NCBI GenBank assembly: GCA_030682135.1
Contig: JAUXQT010000078.1
Coordinates: forward strand, 1 to 40,501
Reading direction: 5' to 3'
DNA from: Nitrospirota bacterium
Lineage (GTDB): Bacteria > Nitrospirota > Nitrospiria > Nitrospirales > Nitrospiraceae
DNA length: 40,501 bases
Shown: positions 2,560 to 36,422 of the stretch, piece after piece
Layout: each line of letters starts with the position of its first letter
How positions within the stretch are numbered: the first letter of the stretch is position 1
Program-made: the position numbers and the translations under genes
Notes under the pieces: generated by a model
Databases searched by the model: none
What the model saw: the letters and a program-made list of their open reading frames with translations, nothing else
Told to the model about the DNA's origin: nothing

Positions 2560-2567
2560 GATCACGC

Positions 2568-17463: not shown

Positions 17464-17492
17464 TTGACATTGGTGAACTATGAAGATACGAT
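17464..17492 (+). promoter_or_regulatory. Promoter and possible operator of the DUF1778-GNAT module
   Basis: TTGACA (17464-17469) and TACGAT (17487-17492) are 17 bases apart, a near-consensus sigma-70 promoter. An inverted repeat ATGTC...GACAT (17449-17470) overlaps the -35 box and is a candidate binding site for the ribbon-helix-helix antitoxin. Confidence 0.55.
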
Positions 17493-17515
17493 TTGACGTA
17501 ATGGGAGGTGGCAAC

Positions 17516-17818
17516 ATGGCAGCACAAGCCGTTCGGACTGAAAAACTGGATCTTCGACTGAGCTCCGCAGCCAAGCGGAGATTGGAAGCCGCTGCATCCG
17601 TTGCCAGTCGTTCGCTGAGCGCATTTGTCCTTGAAAGCGCGCTGTCTCAGGCCGAGCAAACGCTGGCCGATCGCCACACATTTGTACTGAGTAAAGCGAA
17701 ATGGGCTGAGTTTCAGCGGGCATTGGATGCTCCCGTTCGGTCTCTCCCTCGTCTCCAGCGTTTATTGACTGAGCCTGGATATTTTGACGCGGTTCCTGCT
17801 CCGACGGAAGAGCGGTGA
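17516..17818 (+). CDS. DUF1778-family (TacA/AtaR-like) antitoxin
   Basis: This 100-residue antitoxin is expected to bind the adjacent GNAT toxin with its C-terminal tail and the operator with its N-terminal ribbon-helix-helix. The N-terminus shows TEKLDLRLSSAAKRRLEAAA and SRSLSAFVLESALSQAE, the classic beta-helix-helix pattern, followed by the DUF1778 signature DRHTFVLSKAKWAEFQRALD. The start at 17516 is preferred over 17480: a GGGAGG site lies 8 bases upstream and the 17480 ATG falls inside the promoter. The TGA stop overlaps the GTG start of the toxin by four bases. The module is compact and intact. Confidence 0.9.
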   Translation: MAAQAVRTEKLDLRLSSAAKRRLEAAASVASRSLSAFVLESALSQAEQTLADRHTFVLSKAKWAEFQRALDAPVRSLPRLQRLLTEPGYFDAVPAPTEER

Positions 17819-18309
17819 TTCCCAGGATCGAAAAGCTTCACCCTCGTCACGCCGTTGACGCATTCGACTGCGGTAACCAAGATCTCAATCGTTTTCTGCA
17901 AAAGTATGCGCTGCCGAATCAGAGCAGCGGGGCATCAACCACCTATGTCGGGTTGGCGGATCACACGGTGATTGGCTATTACTCTCTGGCTGTGGGATCG
18001 GTGGAGTATGAACAGGTGCCAGCACGAGTCACGAAGGGACTCGCTCATCATCCCATTCCTGTCATGCTGCTCGCACGTCTCGCCGTCGACCATCAATGGC
18101 AAAAAAAAGGGGTTGGGGCAGGATTGCTGAGAGATGCCATGTTGCGGACGCTTCAAGCCGCAGACATTGTGGGAGTTCGCGCCCTCCTAGTCCATGCCAA
18201 AGATCAGCATGCCACAGGGTTCTACCAGCATTTTGACTTCATCCCGTCACCCAGCGATCCGTTACATCTGTTGATTCTGCTGAAAGATGTGAGAAAGATC
18301 GTTTCTTAA
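17815..18309 (+). CDS. GNAT-family toxin (TacT/AtaT-like acetyltransferase)
   Basis: This 164-residue GNAT protein follows the antitoxin with a GTGA overlap. In this family the enzyme acetylates the amino group of charged tRNAs and stops translation. The family opening FDCGNQDLNRFLQKYA is present, then TYVGLADHTVIGYYSLAVGS. Next come LLARLAVDHQWQKKGVGAGLL, with the acetyl-CoA pyrophosphate-binding QxxGxG/A-type loop (KKGVGAG), and GFYQHFDFIPSP with the catalytic-type Tyr. Length and domain order are normal and nothing is broken. The GTG start follows from the four-base overlap. Its exact tRNA specificity cannot be read from sequence. Confidence 0.9.
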   Translation: MIPRIEKLHPRHAVDAFDCGNQDLNRFLQKYALPNQSSGASTTYVGLADHTVIGYYSLAVGSVEYEQVPARVTKGLAHHPIPVMLLARLAVDHQWQKKGVGAGLLRDAMLRTLQAADIVGVRALLVHAKDQHATGFYQHFDFIPSPSDPLHLLILLKDVRKIVS

Positions 18310-19694: not shown

Positions 19695-20729
19695 ATGGAG
19701 CTTCGAGTGCATCAGCCTTCCGATCCTGAATCTCGTTCCAGCCCACAATCAATACTTCTTGAAGATCTCCTTCGGCTTTCCCTTGAGGTGAGAGCGGCCC
19801 ATGTCCAGCAATCTGGAGCTGTTGATCTCGATGCGACACTCCAACGTCTGCGACGTGAGGGGGTCGATATCCCTGAACGGATGGGGAACCGTCTTGCATG
19901 GGCGGTTGCCTTCAATATGGAAGGACCTCCTGATGTCGTAGTTGATGGTATAGCAGCGCCTCGTCGAGGAGCTCGAAGATACAAGGATCATTGGCCATTC
20001 ATCGCATGTTTTGCTGACATCTGGTCCCGGCTGACCAAGTCATGGATCTCATCAAACCCTGGTCATACATCAACCCTACTGGACGAACTCGGCCTCTCCG
20101 TGCTCTGCGAGCAAAAATCTGAATGGCAGGAACCATTATCTCGCCTGGTCGATGTGAAAGCGGCCGATGAGGTCTTTAAGTTCGTCTATGTCAGGAATAA
20201 GGCGAAAGTTGTGGGGCGCGTAAGAAAGGTATTTGGGGAGCGAGCCGATAGCCCGGAGGACATCGCAGACGAAGCCTGGACAGATGTGTTTCGTGACTAC
20301 TGGAGCTCCGAGGCGCGTAGAAGATTTCTTGGCACCAGTCAGATCTCAACGATGGTCTGTCAGATGGCTCTGTATAAGGCGATTGATAGGATCCGTGAGA
20401 AGGGAGCCTTTGTGACCGAAGGGGGATCAGTGGGTGATGCCGCTGACGAGCCCCGTGGTTCCGTGCTGGATAGCCTGGCTGTGTTCGATGATCCAACCGA
20501 GCATATCGCAGGGCAGCAGCTGAAGCGACGAATTCGTGAATGCATAGATCATCAGCTTCCCTTTAAGCAAGGATTGGTGGCTGCAATGGTTTGGCTGGAG
20601 GATAAATCGGCTAAAGAAGTGGCTGAGAGTCTTCTCATCAGTGAGCCGGCCGTTAGTCAGCATCTCAAAAAGGCGCGGGAAACGCTTCGGCCCTATCTGA
20701 AGATGCACGGGTTTGATCTCCCCTCATAG
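19695..20729 (+). CDS. ECF-like RNA polymerase sigma factor with N-terminal extension
   Basis: This 344-residue protein ends in the two conserved regions of an extracytoplasmic-function sigma factor. Region 2 is about residues 155-210 (EVFKFVYVRNKAKVVGRVRK, then DSPEDIADEAWTDVFRDYW), and region 4 is about residues 270-338, with ESLLISEPAVSQHLKKARET as the DNA-binding helix-turn-helix for the -35 box. Known ECF factors are about 180-200 residues, so the first ~150 residues are an extra domain of unknown role. The ATG lacks a clear ribosome site and no other in-frame start is near. The next gene, 76 bases on, encodes a membrane-anchored protein with a cytoplasmic head, the usual position for an anti-sigma factor. 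The target promoters are unknown. Confidence 0.85.
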   Translation: MELRVHQPSDPESRSSPQSILLEDLLRLSLEVRAAHVQQSGAVDLDATLQRLRREGVDIPERMGNRLAWAVAFNMEGPPDVVVDGIAAPRRGARRYKDHWPFIACFADIWSRLTKSWISSNPGHTSTLLDELGLSVLCEQKSEWQEPLSRLVDVKAADEVFKFVYVRNKAKVVGRVRKVFGERADSPEDIADEAWTDVFRDYWSSEARRRFLGTSQISTMVCQMALYKAIDRIREKGAFVTEGGSVGDAADEPRGSVLDSLAVFDDPTEHIAGQQLKRRIRECIDHQLPFKQGLVAAMVWLEDKSAKEVAESLLISEPAVSQHLKKARETLRPYLKMHGFDLPS

Positions 20730-20805
20730 AACAGGGGAACGCGAGCAAGGGTTCAGGGAGCTTAACTCCGCGGGCCTGAGATCGACTAAGAGGTAGGAAA
20801 GGCCA

Positions 20806-22716
20806 ATGCCGATCAACGACGATGACATGGAACGAGTAAAGGCCATTCGTGCCCGGGCACAGGAACGGAGCACGCAAGGCGAGCGACTGGACACTATGGC
20901 CGATGCTGAAGTCATAGCCGCACTGATCGATGGCACCGTTTCGCTCGATGAGATCGATGATGAGACACTGGAACGATGTCGTAAGACCTTCGGGGCAAGT
21001 CATATTGCGCGGTCCATTGTGATGGAGCGACGCAGGGAGGGACAAGGTGATCCGGCCCCCCTTCTGAAAATGGTGCCGGAGAGTGAGTCGACATCAGCAG
21101 TCCCGAAGGCTCCAGCGTCTCGCGGGCCATCCCAACCGGCGAGGTCCTGGTGGCGACAACATTCTCATTTGCTGGCAACGGCAGCATCCCTCGCACTGGT
21201 CTCCATGATCGTAGTCGGAGCGGGGATGCGCGGGATGGAGCCGATTCTGATCGCCATCCAACAGTATGTGTTCAATGGAGTTGAGAAAGGCCCAGGCGCA
21301 GGGAATGCGCCCCTGCGACCGAGCAAAGACTACGCGAGTGGACTGAATATTGATTTTCAATGGCCCTCCCATCCGCCGTTTGATCCTGGTGCCGTAAAAC
21401 CCTGGGGGCCGACTAAGCGTGCGCTCTCCAACGGGTTGCCGGACTTTTCGAAGGAGAGTGTGACGCTGGGAGCAGGAGGTGAAGACCAATTCACAGCCTG
21501 GCGTCTTGCAACAGTGATCATTCGGACGGAAGAAGGAGTGGGGAGCGGCACCTTCATTTCTTCGGATGGATGGCTGTTGACCACGTATCATGTCGTCGAA
21601 GGATCAGTCCAGCAGGCGTCCATGACGGGATCAGTATCGGCGGTTGAGGTCGTCGTCGGCAAAAGTGAAAATGGACGGATCACGCCGAGACCAGCGGTGA
21701 AAGCCCAAGTCTACCGGGTCGATCCCGTGCACGATATCGCCCTGCTCAAACTTGAGGCGTTGCCCGATGGCATGAAAGAAATGCCGTTTGTAACGCTGGC
21801 AGCCGATATCCGTAAGGGAGAAGAGGGTGTTGTGATCGGGGCTCAAGCCAAGGGCCAGGCTTGGTGGGTTCGAAGCGGTAATGTGTCGGGGCTCTTCGAC
21901 TTTCCAAAGAAGTCGAGTCGCAAGGTTGTGGGGAGCGCAGATACGGACAACAGCACGGAACGTACTCATGCCACCATGGTGATCACTGATATCCAGATAG
22001 CTGGTGGAGATTCCGGAGGGCCGCTTCTGAATGCGAAAGGTGAATTAATGGGTCTCACCTTCGCCCCTCCGGTGGATGGACCGGCAGGGTCTATCGGCTG
22101 GCATATCGCATTGACGCATCTGCGCGGCATCGTGGCGGATTTGCCAAGTCAGCCCGAAGCTGTGCCGTTCGATCCCTGGACGATTGGTCTCTCAAATGCC
22201 CGCTTGGGTTTACCTCAGCAAGCCGATGGTGATCGGGATGGCCGCATCGATACCCTGATCTTCCCCTACGTCGCAGATGTCACGGATAGTGCCGGCCGGA
22301 CCGCTCCACAGGCCGTCGCCTTTACCCTGTTCATGGATGTGTCGCAACGCGCCAACTCGAAGCCCAAGGCGTCGGATTTGATGCCGGCTGGGTTATGGTC
22401 GAGAGAAGGCCACGGTAGTTTTCAGTATGACGTATTCATGACCGTTCGAGTCGATGGGAAACTCGTGGTCGGATATACGAATGCCACAGGAGTTGTTGAC
22501 GAACTGCGAATCGGCTCTGCACAGACTGGCAAGATGACCGTTAAATGGCGGAGGGCAAAGCAAGGCGAGTGGTGGCCCTCGTGGCCTTCGATTGGAACCG
22601 CCTTTCTCGATCCGGCGAGGATCGGTGATGGCAAGAGAAGGCAGATCGAAGCGATCTATCAGAATCTTGTGGCTGATCAGTCGGAGAGCCAGTCACCCAA
22701 ACCCAGTACGCCATAA
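20806..22716 (+). CDS. Membrane-anchored trypsin-like serine protease with cytoplasmic N-terminal region
   Basis: This 636-residue protein has a charged, mostly helical N-terminus (1-118) containing MADAEVIAALIDGTVSLDEI. One transmembrane helix follows at about 121-141 (LLATAASLALVSMIVVGAG), then a trypsin/HtrA-type domain. The triad is visible: H262 (TTYHVVEG), D310 (DPVHDIALLKLE) and S403 (IAGGDSGGPLL). A C-terminal beta-rich domain of ~220 residues follows, including DGDRDGRIDTL, a possible calcium-binding loop. The order cytoplasmic head, one TM and periplasmic domain, right after a sigma gene, suggests an anti-sigma-like or signal-transducing role; the head lacks the HxxxCxxC zinc motif of classical anti-sigma factors, so this is inference. 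The ATG has an AGGAAAGG site. The CHAT protease gene follows. Confidence 0.85.
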   Translation: MPINDDDMERVKAIRARAQERSTQGERLDTMADAEVIAALIDGTVSLDEIDDETLERCRKTFGASHIARSIVMERRREGQGDPAPLLKMVPESESTSAVPKAPASRGPSQPARSWWRQHSHLLATAASLALVSMIVVGAGMRGMEPILIAIQQYVFNGVEKGPGAGNAPLRPSKDYASGLNIDFQWPSHPPFDPGAVKPWGPTKRALSNGLPDFSKESVTLGAGGEDQFTAWRLATVIIRTEEGVGSGTFISSDGWLLTTYHVVEGSVQQASMTGSVSAVEVVVGKSENGRITPRPAVKAQVYRVDPVHDIALLKLEALPDGMKEMPFVTLAADIRKGEEGVVIGAQAKGQAWWVRSGNVSGLFDFPKKSSRKVVGSADTDNSTERTHATMVITDIQIAGGDSGGPLLNAKGELMGLTFAPPVDGPAGSIGWHIALTHLRGIVADLPSQPEAVPFDPWTIGLSNARLGLPQQADGDRDGRIDTLIFPYVADVTDSAGRTAPQAVAFTLFMDVSQRANSKPKASDLMPAGLWSREGHGSFQYDVFMTVRVDGKLVVGYTNATGVVDELRIGSAQTGKMTVKWRRAKQGEWWPSWPSIGTAFLDPARIGDGKRRQIEAIYQNLVADQSESQSPKPSTP

Positions 22717-22915
22717 CGCCCTGACGGCGGAGCCAAGCAAGGCCCCAACAAGCTCTGATCCAGGGGAGCCGGGGGAATGAAAGCTCGTCAGTAGGCGAAC
22801 TCAAGCACATGTGGGAGTGGATGTGATGCTCTGTACTGGAGTCACTGTAGACCAAGGCCACATGCAGATTCTGAAGTCTCCCGATCATATCGCTAGGCAG
22901 AATGAGGCCGTGAGG

Positions 22916-25900
22916 ATGCCACGGACGAAGTCCATTGTTGTGTGCTGGCTCTTTGGGTTGGTCATTGGTATGCCAGGAGTGGGGCTGCAGCCAGTAATGG
23001 CGTCGGAGGTTTCTCACTTACCAGCAGCAGATGAATCTACAAAGGTGTCAGCTGTGTTGGTTTCGAGTTTGTCGGCGGGGGCGAACGTGCGAGTTGAAGA
23101 GGCTAGTGGCACCAAGATTCCACAATTGCCCGAAGAGGTAGCCGCAAAAGTGGGGAAAGTCGAGAAAGTTATTGATGTGCTCATGCACGTCAAGCCAGAG
23201 TTATTACCCGATCTTCAAATAGAGTTAGAGAAATTAGTAGAAATGGCTGAGTGGGTTCTCAGTGTCCGTCGGCACAATCAGGAAGAACAGTGGTGGGAGA
23301 CGATTGATGCGCGGCAACGGCTGGCAGATCTCCATGAGTGGGTCAAGTTGAGCTCTGCAGAGCGAGCAGAGTGGGCACGGGCGACATCTTTGAATAGCCA
23401 AGTACAAGAGCACTATCGAATGGGCCATTATACGGAGGCTCTACCGCTGGCGCAGCAGGTTTTGGTGATCCGGGAACAGGTACTGGGCCTTGCACATCCG
23501 TTAACTGCCGCGAGCCTAAATGACGTGGGGCTGTTGCACGAAGCGCAAGGGCACCATGACCAGGCTATTTCTCTGCATGAACGGGCATTGACGATTAGGG
23601 AACAGGTCCTGGGGACGATGCATCCTAGTACCGCTACAAGTCTACACAATTTGGCAATTGTTTACTGGGGGCAGGGTCAATATGCTCAGGCCCAACCACT
23701 CTATGAACGGGCGTTAGCAATTACTGAGCGGGCACAGGGGGCAACGCATCTTGAGTTTGCAATGACCTTGGATAACCTGGCGGTGCTTTATAAGGACCAG
23801 GGGAAGTATGCGCAGGCGTTGCCACTGTACGAGCAAGCGTTGGCGATTCGGGAGCAGGCGTTGGGGGCAGCGCATCAAGAAACGGCAATAAGTCTAAACA
23901 ACCTGGGGTTGTTGTATATGGCCCAGGGAGCCTATGCCAAGGCGTTGCCGTTGTATGAGCGGGCGCTGAGAATCATGGAGGAGGCTTTCGTCTCTGCGCA
24001 TCCGAGCGTGGCAACGTCCCTGAATAACCTGGCGTTGTTGTATGAGGCCCAGGGGGCCTATGCCAAGGCGTTACCGTTGTATGAGCGGGCGCTGAGAATC
24101 ACGGAGGAGGTCTTGGGGCCTGACCACCCCTTGACCGCTACGGTGTTGACGAACCTGGGCATACTGCGGTCGCTCTTCCAACCCGATGCGCAAGCCGCTC
24201 AATTCCTCTTCCGGGCTGTGCAGAGTAAATGGCGGTATCTGACCGATAGCTTTCCAACCCTCACGGCATCCCAACAGCAGCAGTTCCTGAAGAAGGAAGG
24301 GTTGGCCGAAAGCGGGTATGTGTGGCACCTGCTGGCGAAGGTACCGAGCTTGGATCGGGCGCTGGGGTATCAGGGCACGGTGCTCAGTAAGCACCTGCTG
24401 GCTGAAGCAATGCGGCAAGAGAACGGGGCGTTTCAACGGGTCTTGGCCGAGGCCCCGGCCGAGTGGCGAATTCTGTGGCGTGAGCGGGAGTCGCTCCGGC
24501 GTGACTATGCTACCCGCTCATTGCAGGAGTTGCCTGACAGCAAGTCTTTTCTTCATGACGAACCGCGCTTGGTGGCGGTCTCCTCCACGCGCGAGCTGGC
24601 GACACGTATAGAACAACTAGAGCAACACTTGCGGCGAGAATATCCACCCTATGTCCAGGCGGCGCGTCTCCAAGAGGTTACGGTCGAGCAGATCATCCAA
24701 AAGCTGCGGCCTGGCCATGCGCTGCTTGAGTATGTGCAGTTTCATCCCTATGACCCACAGACGAAACGATTAGCTGAGACCTGGCATTACGGCGTCTATG
24801 TCCTGCAGGGCGGTCCGGTTCCCGTCGTGGCGGTGGACTTAGGCGACGCCGCGCCGATCGATGCGGCCATCCGGCAGTTCCAGTCTGGCATGCAGGCGGC
24901 CATCGAGCGATTCAAAAGCGTGACGCCAAGTCGGGGGCAGGTCCGAAAGTCCGAAGCCACCCTCGCGGAGGCCTCATCAGCCCTGCGCAAGTTGGTCTGG
25001 CAGCCACTGGAGTCCCATCTCACGGGTGTGACGCGCGTCTACGTGGCGCCCGATGGGCTCCTGAGCCTGCTTCCATTTGAAGTGCTTGCCCATCAGACGA
25101 AAAAGGGCGGGTGGCAGTATCTGGCGGAAGAACGAGAGCTGCTCTATCTGAACACCGGGCGGGATCTCGCCCGCGTGGGCCTGACCACCGGGGCCGTCTC
25201 AGCATCCCCAGCCGCTCGCACCGCCGTGCTCGTCGGCAATCCCGCGTTCCAGGCCACACCCCGTGAGGTGGCCCGCGTGGTTGCCGGAATCAGCCCCTCA
25301 GGGACCATGGTCGCGCAATCCAAACAGGGAATTTCAGCCCCGACCCTAGGGGCCGTGACGGGGTCGCCGCGCCTGGAGCTTCCGCGCACGTGGCTGCCAG
25401 TGGAGGCGCTGGATGGGCTCGTGACGCGCGCCGAGACGCAATTGAAACTGGCCGGTTGGTCTGTGACGCGGGTGTGGCATGAGCAGGCCGTGGAAGAGGC
25501 CGTGCTCCGGCTTGAGGCGCCACGGATTCTTCAGTTTGCCACGCATGGCTATCTGCTCGATCGCCCGAAGACCGATGCAAGTGGATGGGACAACCCGCTC
25601 TTGCGCTCCATGCTCCTGATGACCGGTGTCAATCACGCTGATCCGAAGCAGGCTGTTTTCTATCGAGTCGGAAAGGATTTGCTGTCGGACACCGAGGCCC
25701 GCCAGCGGGGGCTCACGCCGGAGGCGCAACAACAGGCTCGCGTGGAGGTGGGCGACGGGGTACTGACGGCTTACGAAGTGACAGGGATGAATCTCCAAGG
25801 AACCGAACTCGTGAACCTGACCGCCTGTGAAACCGGGCAGGGGGAAGTGACCCCTGAGGGTGTTGCGGGGCTGCGACAGGCCTTCTTATTGGCCGGTGCA

Positions 25901-26260
25901 CGGGCGCTGACGATGAGCATGTGGGAAGTACCGGCCAAAGAGACCACGCAGCAGATCAGCGACTTCTATCAGCGCTGGCTGGGGGCCGAGAAGGGGAAGA
26001 AAAATAAGTCTCCGATGACCCGCTATGGGGCCTTTCGCCAGACCCAACAAGCGGCCCTTGCGAAGACCCGCAAGCAGTTCGAGGGAGCCGGTCATCCGTT
26101 CTACTGGGCCGGCGTCATCTACCTCGGTGACCCAGGCGATCTGCTGGCCTACCCGGATCAGGCTTCGAGTGCCACGTCAGCCGCCAAAATAAAAAAGATT
26201 GAGGAGCTTAACTCACCCAGGGGGCGCGAGACAAAGAGGAAGAACGGGTTAGATGAGTGA
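22916..26260 (+). CDS. Exported TPR-CHAT (caspase-like) protease
   Basis: This ~1114-residue protein has a signal-like N-terminus (IVVCWLFGLVIGMPGVG). A conserved EQWWETIDARQRLADL segment comes next, then about six 42-residue TPR units of the kinesin-light-chain type (for example SLNNLALLYEAQGAYAKALP). The C-terminal CHAT domain is a caspase-fold cysteine protease: H877 in LQFATHGYLLD and C971 in NLTACETGQGEV form the catalytic dyad, 94 residues apart. The end reads GHPFYWAGVIYLGDP. CHAT proteases are activated by partners and cleave specific proteins, as in Craspase. ATG 22916 fits the signal peptide, with TGAGG upstream; an upstream GTG at 22811 adds 35 unlikely residues. It lies about 200 bases after the trypsin gene on the same strand. 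Confidence 0.88.
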   Translation: MPRTKSIVVCWLFGLVIGMPGVGLQPVMASEVSHLPAADESTKVSAVLVSSLSAGANVRVEEASGTKIPQLPEEVAAKVGKVEKVIDVLMHVKPELLPDLQIELEKLVEMAEWVLSVRRHNQEEQWWETIDARQRLADLHEWVKLSSAERAEWARATSLNSQVQEHYRMGHYTEALPLAQQVLVIREQVLGLAHPLTAASLNDVGLLHEAQGHHDQAISLHERALTIREQVLGTMHPSTATSLHNLAIVYWGQGQYAQAQPLYERALAITERAQGATHLEFAMTLDNLAVLYKDQGKYAQALPLYEQALAIREQALGAAHQETAISLNNLGLLYMAQGAYAKALPLYERALRIMEEAFVSAHPSVATSLNNLALLYEAQGAYAKALPLYERALRITEEVLGPDHPLTATVLTNLGILRSLFQPDAQAAQFLFRAVQSKWRYLTDSFPTLTASQQQQFLKKEGLAESGYVWHLLAKVPSLDRALGYQGTVLSKHLLAEAMRQENGAFQRVLAEAPAEWRILWRERESLRRDYATRSLQELPDSKSFLHDEPRLVAVSSTRELATRIEQLEQHLRREYPPYVQAARLQEVTVEQIIQKLRPGHALLEYVQFHPYDPQTKRLAETWHYGVYVLQGGPVPVVAVDLGDAAPIDAAIRQFQSGMQAAIERFKSVTPSRGQVRKSEATLAEASSALRKLVWQPLESHLTGVTRVYVAPDGLLSLLPFEVLAHQTKKGGWQYLAEERELLYLNTGRDLARVGLTTGAVSASPAARTAVLVGNPAFQATPREVARVVAGISPSGTMVAQSKQGISAPTLGAVTGSPRLELPRTWLPVEALDGLVTRAETQLKLAGWSVTRVWHEQAVEEAVLRLEAPRILQFATHGYLLDRPKTDASGWDNPLLRSMLLMTGVNHADPKQAVFYRVGKDLLSDTEARQRGLTPEAQQQARVEVGDGVLTAYEVTGMNLQGTELVNLTACETGQGEVTPEGVAGLRQAFLLAGARALTMSMWEVPAKETTQQISDFYQRWLGAEKGKKNKSPMTRYGAFRQTQQAALAKTRKQFEGAGHPFYWAGVIYLGDPGDLLAYPDQASSATSAAKIKKIEELNSPRGRETKRKNGLDE

Positions 26261-26520
26261 ATGCATGGGGAATAGCGAGCCACGAACGCGCTCGTACGAC
26301 TGGAGAGGCGCAGGTTGCCAGGTCGTTGCGAAACGTGCCGTGGATGAACATCCCTACCTGGTCGCTTGCGGATGTTGTGAGCATTCACCGTAAGGATTTT
26401 GAACGGGTAGAAAATGGATAATGAAACGATTGTCTTTGGGGCATCATTGCCGGTCAAGCATTCAATAGTTACGCCAGACCCGATGTCTTATCGGTTCGTG
26501 ACTCCGGAAAGAGGGGTACT

Positions 26521-28443
26521 GTGAAAAGCCAACGTATTCGAAGTGTCACTGCAAGTGTCCTCTGTCTCTGTGCGTTGATCTCATTGTCCGGATGTAGTCT
26601 GGATTACGAGGGAGACAGAAGACGGGAACTCCAGAGAGCTCAAGAAGAGCAGGCTCGTCAAGTTCAAGCGCAATATCAATTGTATCAAGACGAAAAAGCA
26701 AATAGAGAAGCACAATTAAGGCCGCAAAAGCTGGTTGCTGGTTCCGTTTATGAGCTGGCTGAAAAAGCGATGAGTGAATTCAAGTACCGGGACGACATTG
26801 TGATGGTGATGTTTCTGACGCAAGGTGACGCGGGGGCCACACTCATGAGAGTGAAAGAGGCCATGCACACCTCTGACGAACATTCGGTCGTGAACCCGCA
26901 CTGGGTGGTTGGATTTCCAGGCGAAGCCGTAGACGTGCAGACCAATTGCGGCGTTGTTGTCGGTCACTGGTATTCCAGTGAAGGGTATCCTTCTCGCGCG
27001 CCATGGGAAAGAATTATGGACGGAGTATTGGCGGGGGAAACGACGGCAGCCACCTACCTCTACTCGCATAAAGGAGAATTCATGTTGACCGAAGGCGGGC
27101 AGCTTGAGATGGATGTGCTGCAAAGCGTCTGCTTTTCTGAACGGACGTTGAGCGCGCCCTATTTCAATGCGTTTGGCGCCCCCGCCGGAAAGAATCGTCC
27201 GACAATCTCCCGGACGACGCAGCAGCCAATGCCAGCGCGATTCACTCAAATCTATACGCCGGCCATGGACCTTGCTGCAAAGGAATTAAAGGGCGACACG
27301 TTCGTGGGAAGCGCGTGCAGCAAAACATTGGATCTTGAGATCAGCGTGACCGATGTCGCTCTTAATAATCCCAAGGAACAGAATAATCCGGTATTCCTGG
27401 TTCGTGGATCCATGAAAGTGGCTCGTGGGTCAAAGGTCTCCTCGCAGGTTGCAGTGATGGGAGCGATCTCCCGAGCGCACGGTGTTTTGAACCTTGTCGA
27501 TCAGAAAGAGGGTTCGAAGCCACTCCCTGGTAAGGTCCATCTCTCTCTTTTTAGAGATGATGACGGCGCAGGATGGGAAGGGATGATTGAGGGTGTCGGG
27601 GAGAAAGGCTGTGATGACGTTCGACTTACAAGCAAGAACGGAAAGAAGTTAATCGCATTTCCCAAGATGACGGGCGATGTCGCCTTCAACCATTCCAATC
27701 CGAAGATGGCACCTGCGTTGAGGCTGTATCCGCTGTATTGGCTCCAAGTGGCAGAAGCTCGTGGCAGTGTCGATGCGACCTATTACCTTGGCGAGCTATA
27801 CGAACAACGCGGAGAATATTTGCGGGCGCTTCAATATTACCAGGCAGCCACTACCACATACGACGATGCCAGAGCTCAGGCGGCATTGGGACGCATGTAC
27901 GAAAAGGGCAAGGGAGTCACGGCGGATAGCGCGAAAGCCCAGCAGTGGAGCAGCTTGGCAAGAAACACATGGCTGAACGCTGCAAGGGTGTGTCGGTCGC
28001 CTCAATTAAGAGACATTATCCGACGGCGCGCAACGCAGTCCTATAGACAGAATAAGAAGACGATTGAGGCCGGTAGGGCTGCGACTGGTGTGAGTGCCGA
28101 TATGGGAGCGGTCACAATAAGCAAAGTTACCCCGGAACAGGTTCTTTCGCTGGCCAAGCCGTTCCTATGCCAGGCTAAAGGGGGATTCGAGAATCCAAAC
28201 GTTCAGATGGAGATCCCAGCATCAGAGGTCACCGTCTGGAGGGACCAATATGGCCGCGAAACGTATACCGACAACTCGATGGCCCGAGCCGCGTCTGTAT
28301 TGACGCAATTATATGGGAATCATGCCGCCAGAAATACGGCTCGCTACTACACGTTTCTCATTGATCCACTAGACAAGGGCCGCTACAAGGTTTTGTACCC
28401 AGGAGCCTCCGGCATTGAATCAGAGGTGATGGATTTGAATTAA
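26521..28443 (+). CDS. Lipoprotein with C-terminal Sel1/TPR repeats
   Basis: This 640-residue protein starts with GTG, preceded by an AAAGAGG site. It has a lipoprotein signal with LSGC and the lipidated Cys at position 25. A charged coiled-coil-like stretch follows (EGDRRRELQRAQEEQARQ). The centre (residues ~60-390) is a long region I do not recognise. At ~395-480 come Sel1/TPR units (ATYYLGELYEQRGEYLRALQ and AQAALGRMYEKGKGVTADSA), then another unknown region with few repeats. Position and orientation make it the fourth gene of the sigma-trypsin-CHAT series, about 260 bases after the CHAT stop (that gap holds nothing recognisable). A substrate or sensor role is possible but unproven. Confidence 0.75.
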   Translation: MKSQRIRSVTASVLCLCALISLSGCSLDYEGDRRRELQRAQEEQARQVQAQYQLYQDEKANREAQLRPQKLVAGSVYELAEKAMSEFKYRDDIVMVMFLTQGDAGATLMRVKEAMHTSDEHSVVNPHWVVGFPGEAVDVQTNCGVVVGHWYSSEGYPSRAPWERIMDGVLAGETTAATYLYSHKGEFMLTEGGQLEMDVLQSVCFSERTLSAPYFNAFGAPAGKNRPTISRTTQQPMPARFTQIYTPAMDLAAKELKGDTFVGSACSKTLDLEISVTDVALNNPKEQNNPVFLVRGSMKVARGSKVSSQVAVMGAISRAHGVLNLVDQKEGSKPLPGKVHLSLFRDDDGAGWEGMIEGVGEKGCDDVRLTSKNGKKLIAFPKMTGDVAFNHSNPKMAPALRLYPLYWLQVAEARGSVDATYYLGELYEQRGEYLRALQYYQAATTTYDDARAQAALGRMYEKGKGVTADSAKAQQWSSLARNTWLNAARVCRSPQLRDIIRRRATQSYRQNKKTIEAGRAATGVSADMGAVTISKVTPEQVLSLAKPFLCQAKGGFENPNVQMEIPASEVTVWRDQYGRETYTDNSMARAASVLTQLYGNHAARNTARYYTFLIDPLDKGRYKVLYPGASGIESEVMDLN

Positions 28444-28531: not shown

Positions 28532-28758
28532 TGCCGATGGAAACGCCTCAAGCTCAAGGGGCGACGTCAATAAAACAAGAGAACGACGTTAGCTTCTCTC
28601 TCGTGGCAAGACGGAGTCTCTAAGCGGCCTAAGCGATACTGTAGATGATGAATGATGAGTGGTTACAAAGACAGTGTATGACAGTTGGCCATTTCTGACC
28701 CTCCCCTGATTTCATAGACACCTCCATAAGTGGGAGAATCATGAAATTGGAGGTCAGT

Positions 28759-29055
28759 ATGCCCAAAACAACACGGCGTCAGTTTACCGACGCCTTCAAG
28801 TCCGAGGCTGTCCGGCTCACGCGGGAATCGGGTCGACCGGTGGCTCAGGTGGCGCGGGAACTCGGTATTTCAGACAATGTGCTATATCGCTGGAGGAGCG
28901 AGCAGCAACAGGTCGACTCCCAGGGCCGCACGCGCCAGGCGGTGCGGGCCGAGCAGGACGAACTGACACGGCTCAAACGAGAAAACGAGACGCTGCGGAA
29001 GGAGCGGGATTTTTTAAAACGTGCGGCGGCGTTCTTCGCGAGGGAATCCCAATGA
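28759..29055 (+). CDS. IS3-family transposase OrfA
   Basis: This 98-residue helix-turn-helix protein binds the IS ends. It carries RRQFTDAFKSEAVRLTRESG, then VAQVARELGISDNVLYRWRS and a C-terminal leucine-zipper-like helix (LTRLKRENETLRKERDFLKR) for multimerisation. ATG 28759 follows a GGAGG site; the frame also opens at 28741. A T TTT TTA slippery heptamer at 29010-29016, in phase with OrfA, allows a -1 shift into OrfB, whose frame is open without a stop from there. The fusion protein OrfAB would be the active transposase, as usual for this family. Confidence 0.9.
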   Translation: MPKTTRRQFTDAFKSEAVRLTRESGRPVAQVARELGISDNVLYRWRSEQQQVDSQGRTRQAVRAEQDELTRLKRENETLRKERDFLKRAAAFFARESQ

Positions 29056-29915
29056 GATACCGCGCAATTCAGGAACATGACCGTCGCTATCCGATCCGGC
29101 TGATGTGCCGCGCTCTTGCGGTCTCGGCGGCGGGCTATTATGCGTGGCGCTCACGGCCTGAGAGTGCCCGGTCGGTGTCTGCCCAGACCGTGCTCTCAGC
29201 CATCCGGGTGATCCATCGAGAATCCCGCGAGACCTACGGCAGTCCCAGTATCTGGGATGCGCTGCTCAAGCAGGGCCATCGCATCGGCGAACATCGCGTC
29301 GCCCGGCTGATGCGCCAGGACGGCATTCGGGCCAAGACCGTGAAAAAGTGGCGTGCCACCACCCAATCCCAGCATCGGTTCCCCGTAGCGGCGAACACCC
29401 TCAATCGCCAGTTCACGGTCGAGTCTCCGAATCGGGTCTGGGCCGGGGACCTCACCTACGTGTGGACCACTGAGGGCTGGCTCTACCTGGCCGTGATCCT
29501 TGATCTGTACTCGCGCCTCGTGGTCGGCTGGGCGATGGACCATCGGCTGACCGTGGAACTGGCCGAGCAGGCCCTCACGATGGCGCTGGTAAACCGGAAC
29601 CCACAGGCCGGGCTTCTGCACCACTCGGATCGCGGTAGTCAGTATGCAGCTACGCGCTACCAGCGGCTACTCGGCGAGCATGGCATCACCCCCAGCATGA
29701 GCCGCACCGGCAACTGCTGGGACAATGCCTGCGTCGAAAGCTTCTTCGGGACACTCAAGCGCGAGCTCGTGTACCATCGGCGCTACGAAACTCGTGAAGC
29801 CGCGAGACAGGATATCTTCGAGTACATTGAGGTGTTCTATAACCGGAGACGCCGTCACTCGACCCTCGGCTATGACTCCCCAGCCGAGTTCGAAGCGAGA
29901 ACGGCAGTTGCTTAA
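29052..29915 (+). CDS. IS3-family transposase OrfB (DDE integrase core)
   Basis: This 287-residue retroviral-integrase-type protein has the DDE catalytic triad in its three motifs: WAGDLTYVWTTEGWLYLAV (first Asp), LLHHSDRGSQYA (second Asp) and NCWDNACVESFFGTLKREL (Glu). An N-terminal HTH_21-like region (YGSPSIWDALLKQGHRIGEH) precedes the core. It overlaps the orfA stop codon by ATGA. The core length is complete, so the element could be active with OrfAB made by frameshifting. Confidence 0.92.
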   Translation: MRYRAIQEHDRRYPIRLMCRALAVSAAGYYAWRSRPESARSVSAQTVLSAIRVIHRESRETYGSPSIWDALLKQGHRIGEHRVARLMRQDGIRAKTVKKWRATTQSQHRFPVAANTLNRQFTVESPNRVWAGDLTYVWTTEGWLYLAVILDLYSRLVVGWAMDHRLTVELAEQALTMALVNRNPQAGLLHHSDRGSQYAATRYQRLLGEHGITPSMSRTGNCWDNACVESFFGTLKRELVYHRRYETREAARQDIFEYIEVFYNRRRRHSTLGYDSPAEFEARTAVA

Positions 29916-30043
29916 CCAGGTGTCCACGGAATTGGGGGAAGGTCATCGAGTATCTCGTTCTCAGTTTATCATGATCTCTTGTGAAAGAAGCTTCTGGGGA
30001 GAGTGGCGCGATGAAGTCTAGTGTTCAAAGCGGAGAAGGATGG

Positions 30044-32239
30044 GTGAAAAACATATTGTTAATACTTAGTATTTTATTGTTATTCATGGCTAGTCCTTGT
30101 TTTGCTGGTTTGAATGACGGAGAGGCTGCTCTTGAGTCTGGCGACTATGCGACGGCGTTACAATGGTTTAGACCATTAGCTGACCAAGGGGATGCAGACG
30201 CCCAGTACAACCTTGGGTTTCTATATGCTACGGGTCGGGGGGTGTCGCAGGACGAGGCGCAGGCGGCAGGGTGGTACCGGAAAGCCGCTGACCAGGGGCA
30301 GGCCACTGCCCAGAACAACCTTGGGGTTCTATATGCCACGGGTCGGGGAGTGCCACAGGACTATGCCCAGGCTAAGGTGTGGTACCGGAAAGCTGCTGAC
30401 CAGGGGCAGGCCACTGCCCAGTACAACCTCGGGGTTCTATATGCCACGGGTCGGGGAGTGCCGCAGGACGAGGCGCAGGCGGCAAGGTGGTACTGGAAAG
30501 CCGCTGATCAGGGGCAGGCCACTGCCCAGTACAACCTCGGGCTTCTATATGCCACGGGTCGGGGAGTGCTACAGGACGAGGCGCAGGCGGCAGGGTGGTA
30601 CCGGAAAGCCGCTGACCAGGGGGATGCAGACGCTCAGTACAACCTCGGGCTTCTATATGCCACGGGTCGGGGAGTACCACAGGACTATGCCCAGGCTAAG
30701 GTGTGGTACCGGAAAGCCGCTGACCAGGGGCACACCATTGCACAGTCTAGCCTTAGCAGCGCTCAAGAAACCAATACGGTTGCTGTTGTAGAAGCCTTGG
30801 ACGAGGATCTATTTACCATACACGCTATTCAATATTTATATGACACGTGGCCAGACGATTTCCAAAATACTAGCAACCTCGTTCAGCAACTACAGCAGGT
30901 TGACAGGAGGGTATCTGCTTTAAAAGCTGGGGCTGAAATGCGGAAAGCGGACAGCAAAGTAATGCAATTGATCGACGACTGTCGTGCGCTGATCGTTGCT
31001 TACGAAACATACCTTCATCAGGTCGGAGCAATTGATAATGCTAGCAGAACTGCGAAGAGTTCGGATGGAATCTCTACATTAAGTGCATCACTGAAAAACG
31101 GTGTAGAAGGAGCCTCATCCGCTTATAAAAGAGGTTATGACGATCAACAATCAGCTGGAATCGGCGTGGCATTCGGTTTGATTACGGTATTCTACGAAGG
31201 GTATTCAAAAGAGCAGCAACGAAATGAGGAGCAACGGTCTCGGCTCAAAGAAGCATCAGCCACCTTGAAGCGCATTTCTCAAGATATTGGCGATCGATCC
31301 AAGTTGCGGGTTGAGTCGCTGACATTGGATAGGCGATGGGCTAAGGGTGAAGCGGGGCTTGACGGATTCACTGTACAGAAAATGAGCGAAGCTCTAGCGC
31401 GTAGGCCGCGTGATCTGTTCTTGCGCGTACGAAATGCGGCACTGCGCGATGGAAGCCAATCATCCATCGCCATACTCGGCGATGCAGAAACCTGCGTTAA
31501 TGCCTATTTACAAGTACCCGCCACTCCGGCGTTTGATGAATTCCGCCGTCTGTTTCTTGCGCATGCCGCAGAAATTGCTGCTGAGGGTGCCATTAAGGGT
31601 TTGCAAGATTCTTCTTATTCCAGTGCTCCGTCATTGCATGGGAAACGGGCTGTGGAAATTGTGCAACTATATCTTTCCCTGCAAGGTGCAGATATGGCGT
31701 TTGGATATCTGCACCTTGCCCGGTCAATGGCGGCGACAGGCAATATCAATGGTGCCATTGTAGCGGCAAACAAAGTCCCAGAATCGCACTGGACTGCAGC
31801 CTATCGATTTATTTATGCCAGGCTAATGAGCATAAGCGGCGATACGGATCGGGCACTGAGTTGGCTCCGTTCTGCGTTTGCACATGGGCACACAGGTGTT
31901 GGTTATGCAAAGGCAAGTCCAGATTTTAAGAATGTTCGTGCTAAGCTGTCGAAGCAATTCGAAGAGATTACAAAGGTCAATTGGAAGTGGATAATTAATT
32001 GGGGTTTTCGCATCAACAATGACACCATTACACTCAGGAATAATTCCGCGTTTCCTATTACGAATGTCATATTGGGGGTGACTGTTTCGTCCTCAGGCTA
32101 TCCCGACTGGGAAGGTGAATTCAAAACAGAGTACGTTCCAGGAGGAGGTTCTGTTACATGGAAGCTCGATGTTTCTGGAATTACTTCTCGCGGCTGGGAC
32201 TACAAAGGGTATGGCAATATAGCTTGCGATCAGTGTTGA
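30044..32239 (+). CDS. Exported Sel1-repeat protein
   Basis: From GTG 30044 this is a 731-residue protein with a classic signal peptide (KNILLILSILLLFMASPCFA). Five near-identical 36-residue Sel1 repeats follow (YNLGxLYATGRGVPQDxAQA), encoded by 108-bp units at 30191-30730, plus flanking partial units. Sel1 repeats form superhelical protein-binding surfaces. The remaining ~480 residues hold a helical middle and an unrecognised C-terminal segment ending in NDTITLRNNSAFPITNVILG, beta-rich in appearance. The 30044 start is preferred because GGAG lies 8 bases upstream and gives a clean signal peptide; ATG 30011 and GTG 29981 are alternatives. Its DNA after the repeats is more AT-rich than the left part of the window. 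Function unknown. Confidence 0.8.
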   Translation: MKNILLILSILLLFMASPCFAGLNDGEAALESGDYATALQWFRPLADQGDADAQYNLGFLYATGRGVSQDEAQAAGWYRKAADQGQATAQNNLGVLYATGRGVPQDYAQAKVWYRKAADQGQATAQYNLGVLYATGRGVPQDEAQAARWYWKAADQGQATAQYNLGLLYATGRGVLQDEAQAAGWYRKAADQGDADAQYNLGLLYATGRGVPQDYAQAKVWYRKAADQGHTIAQSSLSSAQETNTVAVVEALDEDLFTIHAIQYLYDTWPDDFQNTSNLVQQLQQVDRRVSALKAGAEMRKADSKVMQLIDDCRALIVAYETYLHQVGAIDNASRTAKSSDGISTLSASLKNGVEGASSAYKRGYDDQQSAGIGVAFGLITVFYEGYSKEQQRNEEQRSRLKEASATLKRISQDIGDRSKLRVESLTLDRRWAKGEAGLDGFTVQKMSEALARRPRDLFLRVRNAALRDGSQSSIAILGDAETCVNAYLQVPATPAFDEFRRLFLAHAAEIAAEGAIKGLQDSSYSSAPSLHGKRAVEIVQLYLSLQGADMAFGYLHLARSMAATGNINGAIVAANKVPESHWTAAYRFIYARLMSISGDTDRALSWLRSAFAHGHTGVGYAKASPDFKNVRAKLSKQFEEITKVNWKWIINWGFRINNDTITLRNNSAFPITNVILGVTVSSSGYPDWEGEFKTEYVPGGGSVTWKLDVSGITSRGWDYKGYGNIACDQC
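30191..30730 (+). repeat. Five 108-bp tandem coding repeats (Sel1 units)
   Basis: Units start at 30191, 30299, 30407, 30515 and 30623 with an exact 108-base period. They share long identical stretches such as CTATATGCCACGGGTCGGGG. Nucleotide identity is much higher than protein conservation requires, pointing to recent duplication or gene conversion. The unit number may vary between strains. Confidence 0.85.
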
Positions 32240-32355
32240 AGTGAAGGGTCTGATAACAGCCTAACTGTCCGGTAGGGAAACCCGTGCAGCATAACCACTG
32301 ATGTTTGTCCAATTCGGAGACGGCTCTTAACTATGACTGATAGCTTGTTAGTTGG

Positions 32356-32645
32356 CTAGTTCCACCGACGTTGTGAGGCAAGCTCATTTGGGGTCATGTG
32401 TCTGAGTGAGCTGTGTGGGCGATAGTGATTGTAATCCATCAGCCAGGCTTAGATCATTGCTTGGACCTCACCGAGTGGGGTGAACTGATGCAGGTTCAAC
32501 CATTCGTCGCGTAGTCATTCTTAAACGAGTCTATGAAGGCACTTTCCACAGTTTGCCTGGTCGATGGAAATCGAGTTGGAGGCCCCGCCGATACGTAAGC
32601 TCCCCTGTCAACGAGACAAAGCCACCGGTGAACTTCTGGCCTCAA
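32356..32645 (-). pseudogene. IS3-family OrfB C-terminal relic
   Basis: On the minus strand 32645-32540 reads GQKFTGGFVS...LTYRRGLQLDFHRPGK. After frame changes it reads TVESAFIDSFKN and then LNLHQFTPLGEVQAMI, stop, AWLMDYNHYRPHSSLRHMTP, NELASQRRWN, stop. This is the end of an IS3-type transposase (DFIRPGKPxENAFIESFNG...YNxxRPHSSLGxLTPxEF). It differs from the intact IS at 28696, so it is from another element. It has at least one frameshift and two nonsense codons. The rest of 32240-33038 shows no gene; one minus-strand stretch near 32900 reads TDADYKYTLVIQESWKDSLE but is too short to assign. Confidence 0.75.
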
Positions 32646-33038
32646 GCTGGGCCTGTTAGGGGGCGGTCATCTAGGGATGCTGGCGATGGAGGTCAGCGGT
32701 CAATGCCAAGACTTCTGACGGTCGGACTCCGCCGGGTGCGGCAATGGCAGGAGGACACGACGATGTCAGAACCTTCTTGTTGCAAGTTAGCGCGAAACGA
32801 TGAGGCCTCGAGATGCCGGTTACTCATCTTGCCGATCAGGGCGGCCACCGCTCCAGTGAGTCCTTCCACGACTCTTGGATGACCAGGGTGTACTTGTAGT
32901 CTGCGTCGGTCTGGCAACGGAGTAGGACCCTAGCAAGAGATGTTCATATCAGTTCACAAGAGTTTACAGCCAGAGAGTCTGAGGGTGCCTCAGGTCGATA
33001 TCAATAACCCTCTCACGATTGCGTTTAGGACGTCTGTC

Positions 33039-36000
33039 ATGAACTCTGTTCGTCAATTTTTACCGCCTGTAGTGTTTGCCTCTGCAGTATTGTTTGCAGG
33101 TGGCGCATTAGCTCAATCGCAGCCAGCCTCGCCACTTTTGAAAGGATCGACTGGATCTCCTAAAGCGACAATAGAGGGCTCAGGTAACGCTCCGCGATCA
33201 GCGGAAGAAGATCTTGCCGAAGCGAAGTCGGAATGGATGAATGCCTTGCGCGCGCGTGACCCAAAGGCAATGAATAAGGCGATGGAGAGGTTGCAGGAGA
33301 GCACGAAAAAAGCACAGATGTCTGAGCGCGCAGCTAGTGAAGGTAGAACGGCACAAAAAAACGCTGCCTCCACAATGCCGCCGCAATCTACCTCCACTGT
33401 CGGTGTGCAGCCAGGCGTAAAAGAAATCGGCGGGAAAGTAGAGCCAGCGGATCCGATCGCTCAATATCATATGGGGGAGATGTATTCCAAAGGCCAGGGC
33501 GTGCCTGTCGACCACTGGAAATCCATGGACTGGTATCGTAAATCTGCTGACCAAGGATTTGCTCCCGCCCAGGCCAAGCTTGGTGCTTTGTACGAGAACG
33601 GCAAGGGGCCGGGGAAGGACCCCTGGGTGGCTCAAAGATGGTATCGGAAATCGGCTGACCAAGGATTTGCTCCTGCGCAGGTTAACCTCGGTGTTTTGTA
33701 CGAGAATGGCACGGGGATGCCGCGAAGCTATGTGGAGGCAATGGTCTGGTACCGCAAAGCCGCTGAGCAAGGCTCTGTCGACGCGCAATACCGCATTGGC
33801 CATCTGTACCACACCGGTGATGTCCCTTTGCAAAACTCCATGAAGATCCCGAAAGGTGTTGCCCAAGACTATGCTCAGGCCGAAGTCTGGTATCGCAAAG
33901 CCGCCGACCAAGGGCAGGCAGACGCCCAGTTTAATCTTGGTCTCCTATATGATAATGGCCAAGGTGTTGCACGGGACTACGCCCAGACTCTAGCGTGGTA
34001 TCGCAAAGCCGCCGACCAAGGGCAGGCGGACGCCCAGTTTAGTCTTGGTGTGCTCTATGACAACGGCCAAGGCGTTGCCCAGGACTCTGCCCAGGCTCTA
34101 GTTTGGTATCGCAAAGCCGCCGACCAGAACAATCCTGCAGCAAAAAATGCTCTCGGTACCCTGTATGAGAAAGGCCAGGGGTTGCCACAAAGCTACTGGC
34201 AGGCCTTCGTCGTGTATCAACAAGCGGCCGTCAAGGGATTCGCTCCAGCCCAGACCAATCTCGGTACCCTCTATGAAAAAGGTCAGGGGATACGTCAAGA
34301 CTATGGAGAGGCCGTCAGGTGGTACGCGGAGGCGGCCAACCAAGGGTTTGCTCTGGCGCAAACTCGATTAGGCGTCATGAGTGAGAATGGCACGGGGGGA
34401 AAGCGGAATAATGAAGCGGCAATGAACTTGTACCGCAAAGCCGCCGATCAGGGATTTGCTCCGGCACAGATTCGTGTCGGTGCGATGTACGAGAACGGCA
34501 AGGTTCGGCCGAAAGACCTCACCCGCTGGGGTACGTCTGAGAACGGCACGAGTCCGAACCAAGACTATGCGCAGGCGATGGTTTGGTATCGTAAGGCCGC
34601 CGAGCAAGGTTCTGTCGATGCGCAGTATCACATTGGCCATCTGTACCACACTGGCGATGCGCCTTCTCAAAACCCCGTGAAGATCATGAAAGGCCTAGCT
34701 CAAGACTACGCCCAAGCTGAAGCCTGGTATCGCAAAGCCGCCGACCAAGGGCAGGCGGACGCGCAGTTTAGTCTGGGTGTGCTCTATGCCAACGGCCAAG
34801 GGGTCACGCAGGACTCTGCCAAGGCTCTAGTCTGGTATCGAAAGGCTGCTGAGCAAGGGCAGGCAAATGCCCTACTTTATCTCGGTGTGCTTCATGACAC
34901 CGGCCAAGGGGGCGGACAGGATTCAGCCCAGACTCTAGCGTGGTATCGCAAAGCCGCCGACCAAGGGCAGGCGGACGCCCAGTTTAACCTCGGTCTCCGG
35001 TATAGCACCGGCCAAGGCGTCTCACAGGACTACGCCCAAGCTACAACCTGGTATCGCAAAGCCGCCGATCAAAGTCACGCCGATGCGCAGTTCAGCCTTG
35101 GTCTTCTCTATAGCACTGGCCAAGGCGTCCCCCAAGACACTGCCCAAGCTGCAACCTGGTATCGAAAATCCGCCAGCCAGCCGAAAACCAATGACCAGTA
35201 CAACTCCGGCCGTTCAGATGCGAATGGTCAAGGTGTGCAACGAGACTCTAATCAAGCTGAAGCCTGGTATCGCAAAGTCGTCGACCAAGGGCCATCTGAC
35301 GCCCAGTTTAACCTTGGTCTCCGGTATGCCAACGGCCAAGGTCTCCCTCAAGACGCTACTCAGGCCGCTGCTTGGTTTCGTAAAGCTGCTGATCATGGAT
35401 TGGCTGCTGCCCAGTTTAGTCTCGGCCTCCGATATAGCACCGGCCAGGGTGTGCAGCAAGACTACACGCAGGCTGCAGCCTGGTATCGTAAGGCTGCTGA
35501 GCAGGGGCAGGCCGATGCCCAGTTTAGTCTTGGCCTTCTGTATAGCAACGGCGAAGGTGTCCCTCAAGACCACGTACAGGCCGCCGCTTGGTATCGCAAA
35601 GCCGCCGACCAGCTGAGTGAAATTGCCCGATTCCCCTCCGGTGTCGAATATGCTCGGGGGGAAGGCATGCATCCAGACTCTGCCCGAGCCGAGGCTTGGT
35701 ATCGCAAAGCTGCCGATCAAGGCCAGGCAGACGCCCAGTTCAGCCTTGGACTCCGGTATGCAGACGGCAAAGGTGTCCCGCAGGACTTTGAGCAAGCCGT
35801 CGTCTGGTATCGCAACGCTGCTCGGCAGGGGTTGGTCAGTGCTCAATACAATCTTGGTCGTCTCTATTACACCGGCCAGGGTGTGCCGCAGGACTTTGCG
35901 CAGGCTGCTATCTGGTATCGGAAAGCTGCAGAACAAGGATTTGTCAAGGCTCAAAACATTCTTGCGTTCCTCTACTACAACGGCAAAGGCGTCTTGCAGG

Positions 36001-36422
36001 ATTATGCGCAGGCTGCGGCTTGGTTTCGTCAAGCTGCCAAACAGGGGGATGCTGATGCTCAGAGCAATCTGGGTGCGTTGTATGCCAATGGGCAGGGTGT
36101 GCCGAAAGACTATGGGCAGGCTATGGCCTGGCTTCGCAAGGCTGCCGATCAAGGAAATGAAACCGCACAGGCTGATCTCAGTGAACTGTCATCCAGGCCC
36201 ACGCGCGATGATGATGCGACAATCAGTATCCTGAAAATTGGATTAGGGATAGCGGCCCTGGCGGCAGTAAGTATGGTGTTTAATGGTAGTAGCAGAGATG
36301 AGGACCAAGGCGATAATTCCATTGAAAACGAGGAGAGGAAGCTAAGAGAGGAAATATTTTGGGAGCGTCAGAGACAAAAAACTCTTGAAAGTCAATTAGG
36401 CGTGAGAGATGGCAAAAATTAG
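33039..36422 (+). CDS. Large exported Sel1-repeat protein with C-terminal membrane segment
   Basis: This 1127-residue protein has a signal peptide (PPVVFASAVLFAGGALAQ) from ATG 33039; a frame start at 32940 adds 33 unlikely residues. After a helical charged region (residues ~40-130) come about 24 Sel1 repeats of about 36 residues (YRKAADQGQADAQFSLGVLY type). A block around HIGHLYHTGD occurs twice, 837 bases apart, showing a large internal duplication. The C-terminus has a membrane helix (ISILKIGLGIAALAAVSMVF) followed by a charged coiled-coil tail. The likely topology is an extended periplasmic superhelix anchored at its C-terminus. It probably binds proteins; no catalytic domain is seen. It stands downstream of the IS3 relic, not in an operon with the earlier Sel1 gene. 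Confidence 0.82.
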   Translation: MNSVRQFLPPVVFASAVLFAGGALAQSQPASPLLKGSTGSPKATIEGSGNAPRSAEEDLAEAKSEWMNALRARDPKAMNKAMERLQESTKKAQMSERAASEGRTAQKNAASTMPPQSTSTVGVQPGVKEIGGKVEPADPIAQYHMGEMYSKGQGVPVDHWKSMDWYRKSADQGFAPAQAKLGALYENGKGPGKDPWVAQRWYRKSADQGFAPAQVNLGVLYENGTGMPRSYVEAMVWYRKAAEQGSVDAQYRIGHLYHTGDVPLQNSMKIPKGVAQDYAQAEVWYRKAADQGQADAQFNLGLLYDNGQGVARDYAQTLAWYRKAADQGQADAQFSLGVLYDNGQGVAQDSAQALVWYRKAADQNNPAAKNALGTLYEKGQGLPQSYWQAFVVYQQAAVKGFAPAQTNLGTLYEKGQGIRQDYGEAVRWYAEAANQGFALAQTRLGVMSENGTGGKRNNEAAMNLYRKAADQGFAPAQIRVGAMYENGKVRPKDLTRWGTSENGTSPNQDYAQAMVWYRKAAEQGSVDAQYHIGHLYHTGDAPSQNPVKIMKGLAQDYAQAEAWYRKAADQGQADAQFSLGVLYANGQGVTQDSAKALVWYRKAAEQGQANALLYLGVLHDTGQGGGQDSAQTLAWYRKAADQGQADAQFNLGLRYSTGQGVSQDYAQATTWYRKAADQSHADAQFSLGLLYSTGQGVPQDTAQAATWYRKSASQPKTNDQYNSGRSDANGQGVQRDSNQAEAWYRKVVDQGPSDAQFNLGLRYANGQGLPQDATQAAAWFRKAADHGLAAAQFSLGLRYSTGQGVQQDYTQAAAWYRKAAEQGQADAQFSLGLLYSNGEGVPQDHVQAAAWYRKAADQLSEIARFPSGVEYARGEGMHPDSARAEAWYRKAADQGQADAQFSLGLRYADGKGVPQDFEQAVVWYRNAARQGLVSAQYNLGRLYYTGQGVPQDFAQAAIWYRKAAEQGFVKAQNILAFLYYNGKGVLQDYAQAAAWFRQAAKQGDADAQSNLGALYANGQGVPKDYGQAMAWLRKAADQGNETAQADLSELSSRPTRDDDATISILKIGLGIAALAAVSMVFNGSSRDEDQGDNSIENEERKLREEIFWERQRQKTLESQLGVRDGKN

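Follow-up and report, generated by a model that had tools for sequence, protein, structure and literature searches.

A predicted trans-membrane sigma/anti-sigma module of some Nitrospira with an exported-type TPR-CHAT protein as candidate site-1 protease

An ECF-type sigma factor and a membrane protein with a cytoplasmic head, a single transmembrane (TM) helix and a trypsin-fold outer domain form, as judged from sequence, a tight and well-supported unit, and an exported-type TPR-CHAT protein belongs with pairs of this kind. The set is read here as a trans-membrane sigma/anti-sigma module of some Nitrospira in which the CHAT protein would act as site-1 protease, a reading to which we give a probability of about 45%. 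Its distribution is narrow, and it would be a new variant of sigma/anti-sigma signalling, one with a CHAT partner. What a bacterium can sense outside is set by its anti-sigma factors; if the reading is true, the locus adds an anti-sigma head that had gone unrecognised, a trypsin fold serving as a sometimes-dead sensor and a CHAT protease at work outside the cytoplasm.

The sigma factor and its membrane partner

The window, i.e., the whole stretch of 40,501 nucleotides that was analysed, comes from a nearly complete genome of 113 contigs. An ORF check of the window recovered all four consecutive same-strand ORFs reported by the first-pass annotation, on the + strand at 19695-28443, with the following features:

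19695..20729, + strand, sigma factor of ECF type (344 aa, TIGR02937), the N-terminal ~150 aa being a helical extension
20806..21159, + strand, cytoplasmic head (membrane protein residues 1-118), a proposed anti-sigma domain that neighbours the sigma gene at 5/5 loci
21169..21225, + strand, single TM helix, residues 122-140 (hydropathy peak 2.11)
21541..22056, + strand, trypsin/HtrA-like outer domain, residues 246-417 (PF13365, E 1.3e-20; H262, D310, S403)
22153..22713, + strand, C-terminal outer region, about residues 450-636; conserved, with no Pfam match and no PDZ
22811..26260, + strand, exported-type TPR-CHAT protein (PF12770, E 1.2e-46; H912/C1006); likelier start ATG 22916
26521..28443, + strand, lipoprotein, judged a neighbour and not part of the module

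The whole head-TM-trypsin gene occupies 20806-22716 and codes for 636 aa.

The sigma protein matches TIGR02937 at residues 164-333 (E 3.8e-16, 59.2 bits against a cut-off of 42.9) and Pfam region 4 at residues 287-332. In its shallow structure model the helices of the extension fall within residues 22-138, with sigma2 and sigma4 coming next; the best fold match of the model is E. coli sigmaE (1or7, E 1.6e-3). The TIGR02937 match, the model and the fold match agree on sigma2 and sigma4 without sigma3, the layout of an ECF factor, and the earlier description of an ECF-like sigma factor with an extra N-terminal domain stands; the ~150-aa extension itself has no Pfam match. No promoter motif common to the four sigma upstream regions rose above shuffles. 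Carriage by phages or plasmids was considered and rejected: the sigma factor has no match in the phage, plasmid and viral-contig collections, and the trypsin protein has no full-length match there.

The sigma family was seen only in four Nitrospiraceae genomes, at five loci. Besides the genome of the window, the sigma search of 396 genomes of the phylum returned only G109 and G102; a profile of the head, run over 175 genomes of the family, found it in the same three genomes plus two copies in G445; and a scan of 84,980 species, pattern-based so that distant relatives could escape it, returned loci only from G102, G109 and G445, all of them Nitrospira MAGs. When 61 relatives were searched with the trypsin protein, other genomes showed domain-level similarity at most. 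At 5/5 loci the head-TM gene comes directly after the sigma gene, on the same strand and after a gap of roughly 70-90 nt; class I anti-sigma factors (ASDI) are likewise encoded next to an ECF sigma gene. Its product has at every locus a common cytoplasmic head of ~80 aa and a TM helix. What differs between loci is the outer domain, a trypsin domain at four and Sel1 repeats at one (G109). This conserved pairing bears out the earlier claim that the sigma gene and the gene of the TM-anchored trypsin belong together. The pair is known from four genomes. Three are MAGs, and one of the four, G102, has decayed genes: its sigma gene is a remnant only and its trypsin gene is frameshifted, probably recently.

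By hydropathy, the TM helix lies in the same place in all relatives of the 636-aa protein; with one TM helix at about residues 122-140 and Trypsin_2 at 246-417, the first-pass picture of a TM-anchored trypsin-like protein with a cytoplasmic head holds. This head probably inhibits the sigma factor, a judgement that draws mainly on gene order and domain swapping, and also on its cytoplasmic N-terminal placement and its predicted helices, four in number like those that make up class I anti-sigma domains (PMC7406223). The predicted head structure is of low confidence (mean pLDDT ~60). The head is unrecognised by Pfam, matches no known anti-sigma domain by sequence and contains no HxxxCxxC motif. 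Its profile scores 15.9 against zinc anti-sigma domains (maximum of 60 controls, 15.5), and the stretch VIAALIDGTVS aligns weakly with the RLSLYLDGELP-type motif of the zinc anti-sigma domains of relatives. A PDB sequence search with the head profile gave no credible match, and fold searches with Foldseek and VIA-align, for which the query model had a mean pLDDT of 60, gave weak, unrelated rows only. Most likely, the trypsin gene codes for a membrane anti-sigma factor whose sensor has a trypsin fold, and not for a member of an obligatory protease relay.

The outer trypsin domain and the TPR-CHAT protein

The trypsin domain of the window (Trypsin_2, PF13365, E 1.3e-20) aligns best with HtrA/Deg proteases and carries the predicted triad H262, D310 and S403. 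The triad is intact in the window and in L072; the catalytic His is replaced by Gln in L065 and L071, and in L071 Ser is replaced by Pro as well. A comparison of L065 with L071 gives a dN/dS of 0.16 for 187 trypsin codons and of 0.19 for the tail, which indicates that the domain is under purifying selection despite the lost catalytic residues. Catalysis thus appears dispensable, and a fold kept without it is what would be expected of a sensor or docking domain, the role that we consider the likelier one for the outer domain. The relay of two proteases proposed earlier is weakened, since two of the four trypsin domains lack catalytic residues and are nevertheless under purifying selection. The C-terminal outer region of ~190 aa is common to the window, L072, L071 and G102, and no PDZ was found in the 636-aa protein (Pfam, E <= 1).

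The next ORF, of 1149 aa, codes for a TPR array and a CHAT domain at residues 721-1107 (E 1.2e-46). Its N-terminus is hydrophobic and signal-like by hydropathy, and translation probably starts at ATG 22916, because the ORF start at 22811 puts 35 residues before the signal-like stretch. The His/Cys dyad (H912/C1006) is present in the window and intact in 5/5 aligned copies; together with the predicted export, this agrees with what the first-pass annotation had said of the protein. Close relatives of its C-terminal half, at 58-61% identity, occur only in G102 and G445, the other strong family matches lying below 38%. Among the 175 genomes of the family, the CHAT subfamily is found only in the genome of the window (G000), G102 and G445, i.e., in exactly the genomes with trypsin-type pairs; none was found in G109, which has the Sel1-type pair. 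The chance of such an overlap is p about 5e-6 (4 / ways to draw 3 of 175) if genomes are independent, a value that overstates the support, as G102 and G445 share a genus. Because the subfamily is confined to the three trypsin-type genomes and the dyad is intact throughout, the TPR-CHAT gene can be said, by comparison of genomes, to belong with the trypsin-type pairs, as had been proposed. Searched against PDB chains, the CHAT half gave no sequence match at E <= 1, and no sigma genes were found near 12 more distant TPR-CHAT genes. The second CHAT of the host genome (C33) was rejected as a counterpart, its architecture and neighbours being different.

Elsewhere the pair and the CHAT gene are arranged differently. 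In G102 the CHAT gene lies ~12 kb downstream of the pair on the same strand. In G445 the two are linked through p255, an exported-type protein of 255 aa without Pfam match that is absent from the window, of which the following copies lie between trypsin and CHAT:

L150, 1875-2642, p255
L072, 1-523, p255
L152, 1-113, p255

The sigma-trypsin contig C119 of G445 ends within the p255 gene, on contig C168 p255 is directly upstream of a CHAT gene, and contig C61 opens with the last residues of a p255 gene that is directly followed by another CHAT gene; these ends are consistent with one sigma-trypsin-p255-CHAT locus split by the assembly. A 31-kb contig of G445 carries two CHAT copies but neither sigma nor trypsin genes.

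Proposed mechanism and its rivals

In the preferred reading, the head of the 636-aa protein would hold the sigma factor at the membrane, while the outer trypsin fold and C-terminal region would sense or dock something outside. The exported TPR-CHAT protein would be a dedicated site-1 protease whose TPR array meets the trigger, either envelope damage or an invader, upon which CHAT would cleave the anti-sigma factor in its outer part. Release of the sigma factor would next fall to a general site-2 protease such as RseP together with cytoplasmic proteases, and the freed factor would switch on a response regulon; the host genome contains M50 proteases as possible site-2 proteases. For CHAT as activating protease rather than output gene, the odds fall just short of even.

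The main rival keeps the sigma/anti-sigma pair and makes the TPR-CHAT protein an exported effector within the sigma regulon, other proteases releasing the sigma factor. We regard this as somewhat less likely than the preferred reading. In its favour, co-occurrence would be expected of a regulon no less than of a regulator, CHAT copies of G445 also lie away from the pair (C168), and a dedicated switch would need a far shorter and less variable TPR array; the tie of the subfamily to the trypsin-type outer domain, and its absence with the Sel1-type, would rather be expected of a partner of the outer domain. The trypsin domain could instead be an active protease: once activated outside, it would cut itself or CHAT and relay the signal to the sigma factor. 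The intact triads in the window and L072 would fit such a role, as would the trypsin gene that directly precedes a TPR-CHAT gene in G345, there without sigma gene, but the loss of His in L065 and L071 and of Ser in L071 under purifying selection, and the replacement of the whole domain by Sel1 repeats in G109, make it improbable.

Least probable of all, with only a slim chance, is that mobile islands carry the sigma pair and CHAT independently of each other and that the two travel together by chance. Such a history would account for the conjugation genes near the pair in G445 (relaxase at L072, VirB4 at L071) and near other CHATs in G446, and for the 12 kb between pair and CHAT in G102; it sits badly with the match of the CHAT subfamily to the trypsin-type genomes, its absence from the Sel1-type genome, the p255 link in G445 and the direct adjacency in the window.

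Relation to known systems and neighbouring genes

In type III-E CRISPR, a TPR-CHAT protein, a predicted sigma factor and its inhibitor are encoded together, and the protease relieves the sigma factor (PMC10028731). The window locus likewise has a TPR-CHAT protein with His/Cys dyad, a sigma factor and a proposed inhibitor, but this inhibitor would lie in the membrane, its outer domain being of trypsin or Sel1 type, and the CHAT protein has a signal-like N-terminus. No Cas1 was found in the whole host genome and no cas gene was seen in the window; of the window proteins scanned with PADLOC, none matched a CRISPR effector, and no defence system of PADLOC matched the set. The earlier remark that the set occurs without visible CRISPR or cas genes is thus extended, for Cas1, to the entire genome, and the likeness to type III-E that accompanied it survives in parts and logic and fails in the missing Cas1 and the trans-membrane arrangement. 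Because there is no Cas1 and the parts lie both in and outside the membrane, the locus is not filed as III-E. It is doubtful, though conceivable, that the locus is a CRISPR-free trans-membrane counterpart of the III-E sigma switch, in which an exported CHAT protease cleaves an anti-sigma factor with a catalytically optional trypsin sensor upon an envelope-stage intruder or damage; CHAT would then include a regulated site-1 protease, and the head would be a new anti-sigma domain. If the preferred reading is true, a CHAT protease would work outside the cytoplasm, the sigma-switch role of CHAT having been shown within type III-E CRISPR, and III-E would appear to draw on a more general protease-inhibitor-sigma switch.

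The membrane layout recalls class I membrane anti-sigma factors such as RseA/sigmaE and RsiW/SigW (PMC7406223), in which the gene after the sigma gene codes for a single-pass, N-in protein whose N-terminal domain is small and helical, and a general site-2 protease is likewise available in the host genome. The head described here differs in having neither a Pfam match nor HxxxCxxC, the outer part is a trypsin fold or Sel1 repeats, and CHAT takes the place that DegS has in the RseA/sigmaE system as the proposed site-1 protease. HtrA/DegS proteases share the trypsin domain with the His-Asp-Ser triad found in the window and, in DegS, the N-terminal TM helix; unlike them, the window protein has no detectable PDZ and a long cytoplasmic head, and two of its relatives have lost catalytic residues. 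In EACC2-caspase neighbourhoods, an ECF sigma factor and a TPR protein occur with trypsin-like domains among the variable parts (PMC8195603), so that a clan CD protease, an ECF sigma factor and a TPR protein are together there too; those caspases carry a constant EACC2 domain, whereas the trio of the window has no caspase and has a membrane head-TM protein and an exported CHAT. Among the open-access papers searched, none came nearer to the sigma/trypsin/CHAT combination than these neighbourhoods.

The fourth ORF has a lipoprotein-type N-terminus (LISLSGC) and one weak Sel1/TPR stretch. Its relatives, at 49-52% identity, are found in G424, G114 and G444, each beside unrelated genes, and none was found in the other sigma-bearing genomes (G102, G109 and G445); the lipoprotein was rejected as part of the module, contrary to the first-pass proposal. 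Of the co-occurrence of four genes across genomes, the first three are conserved beyond chance, and the lipoprotein is unlinked. Between it and the Sel1 genes lies an IS3-type two-ORF transposase at 28741-29915 (read from the ORFs), followed at 29981-36422 by a pair of exported-type Sel1 proteins, of which the second has 23 Sel1 stretches. Upstream of the sigma gene, genes for a TacA-like antitoxin and a GNAT acetyltransferase at 17480-18309 are a likely toxin-antitoxin pair, and genes for the B and A subunits of topoisomerase VI, unusual in bacteria, adjoin at 499-3674.

Other TPR-CHAT genes of the family have neighbours of their own. At L157 (G345:C70, 103-8152), genes for a caspase, a secreted trypsin and a TPR-CHAT protein stand in a row on one strand, without a sigma gene, which makes this a second neighbourhood of trypsin and CHAT, and in three Nitrospiraceae genomes a TIR-domain gene is directly beside TPR-CHAT (L159, 7895-8674, PF13676; similar ORFs in L160 and L162). 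The sigma-trypsin pairs at L071 and L072 (G445) and the TPR-CHAT gene at L161 (G446) lie beside conjugation genes (relaxase, VirB4/TrbE, RadC-like), and integrative elements may carry such pairs or TPR-CHAT genes as cargo.
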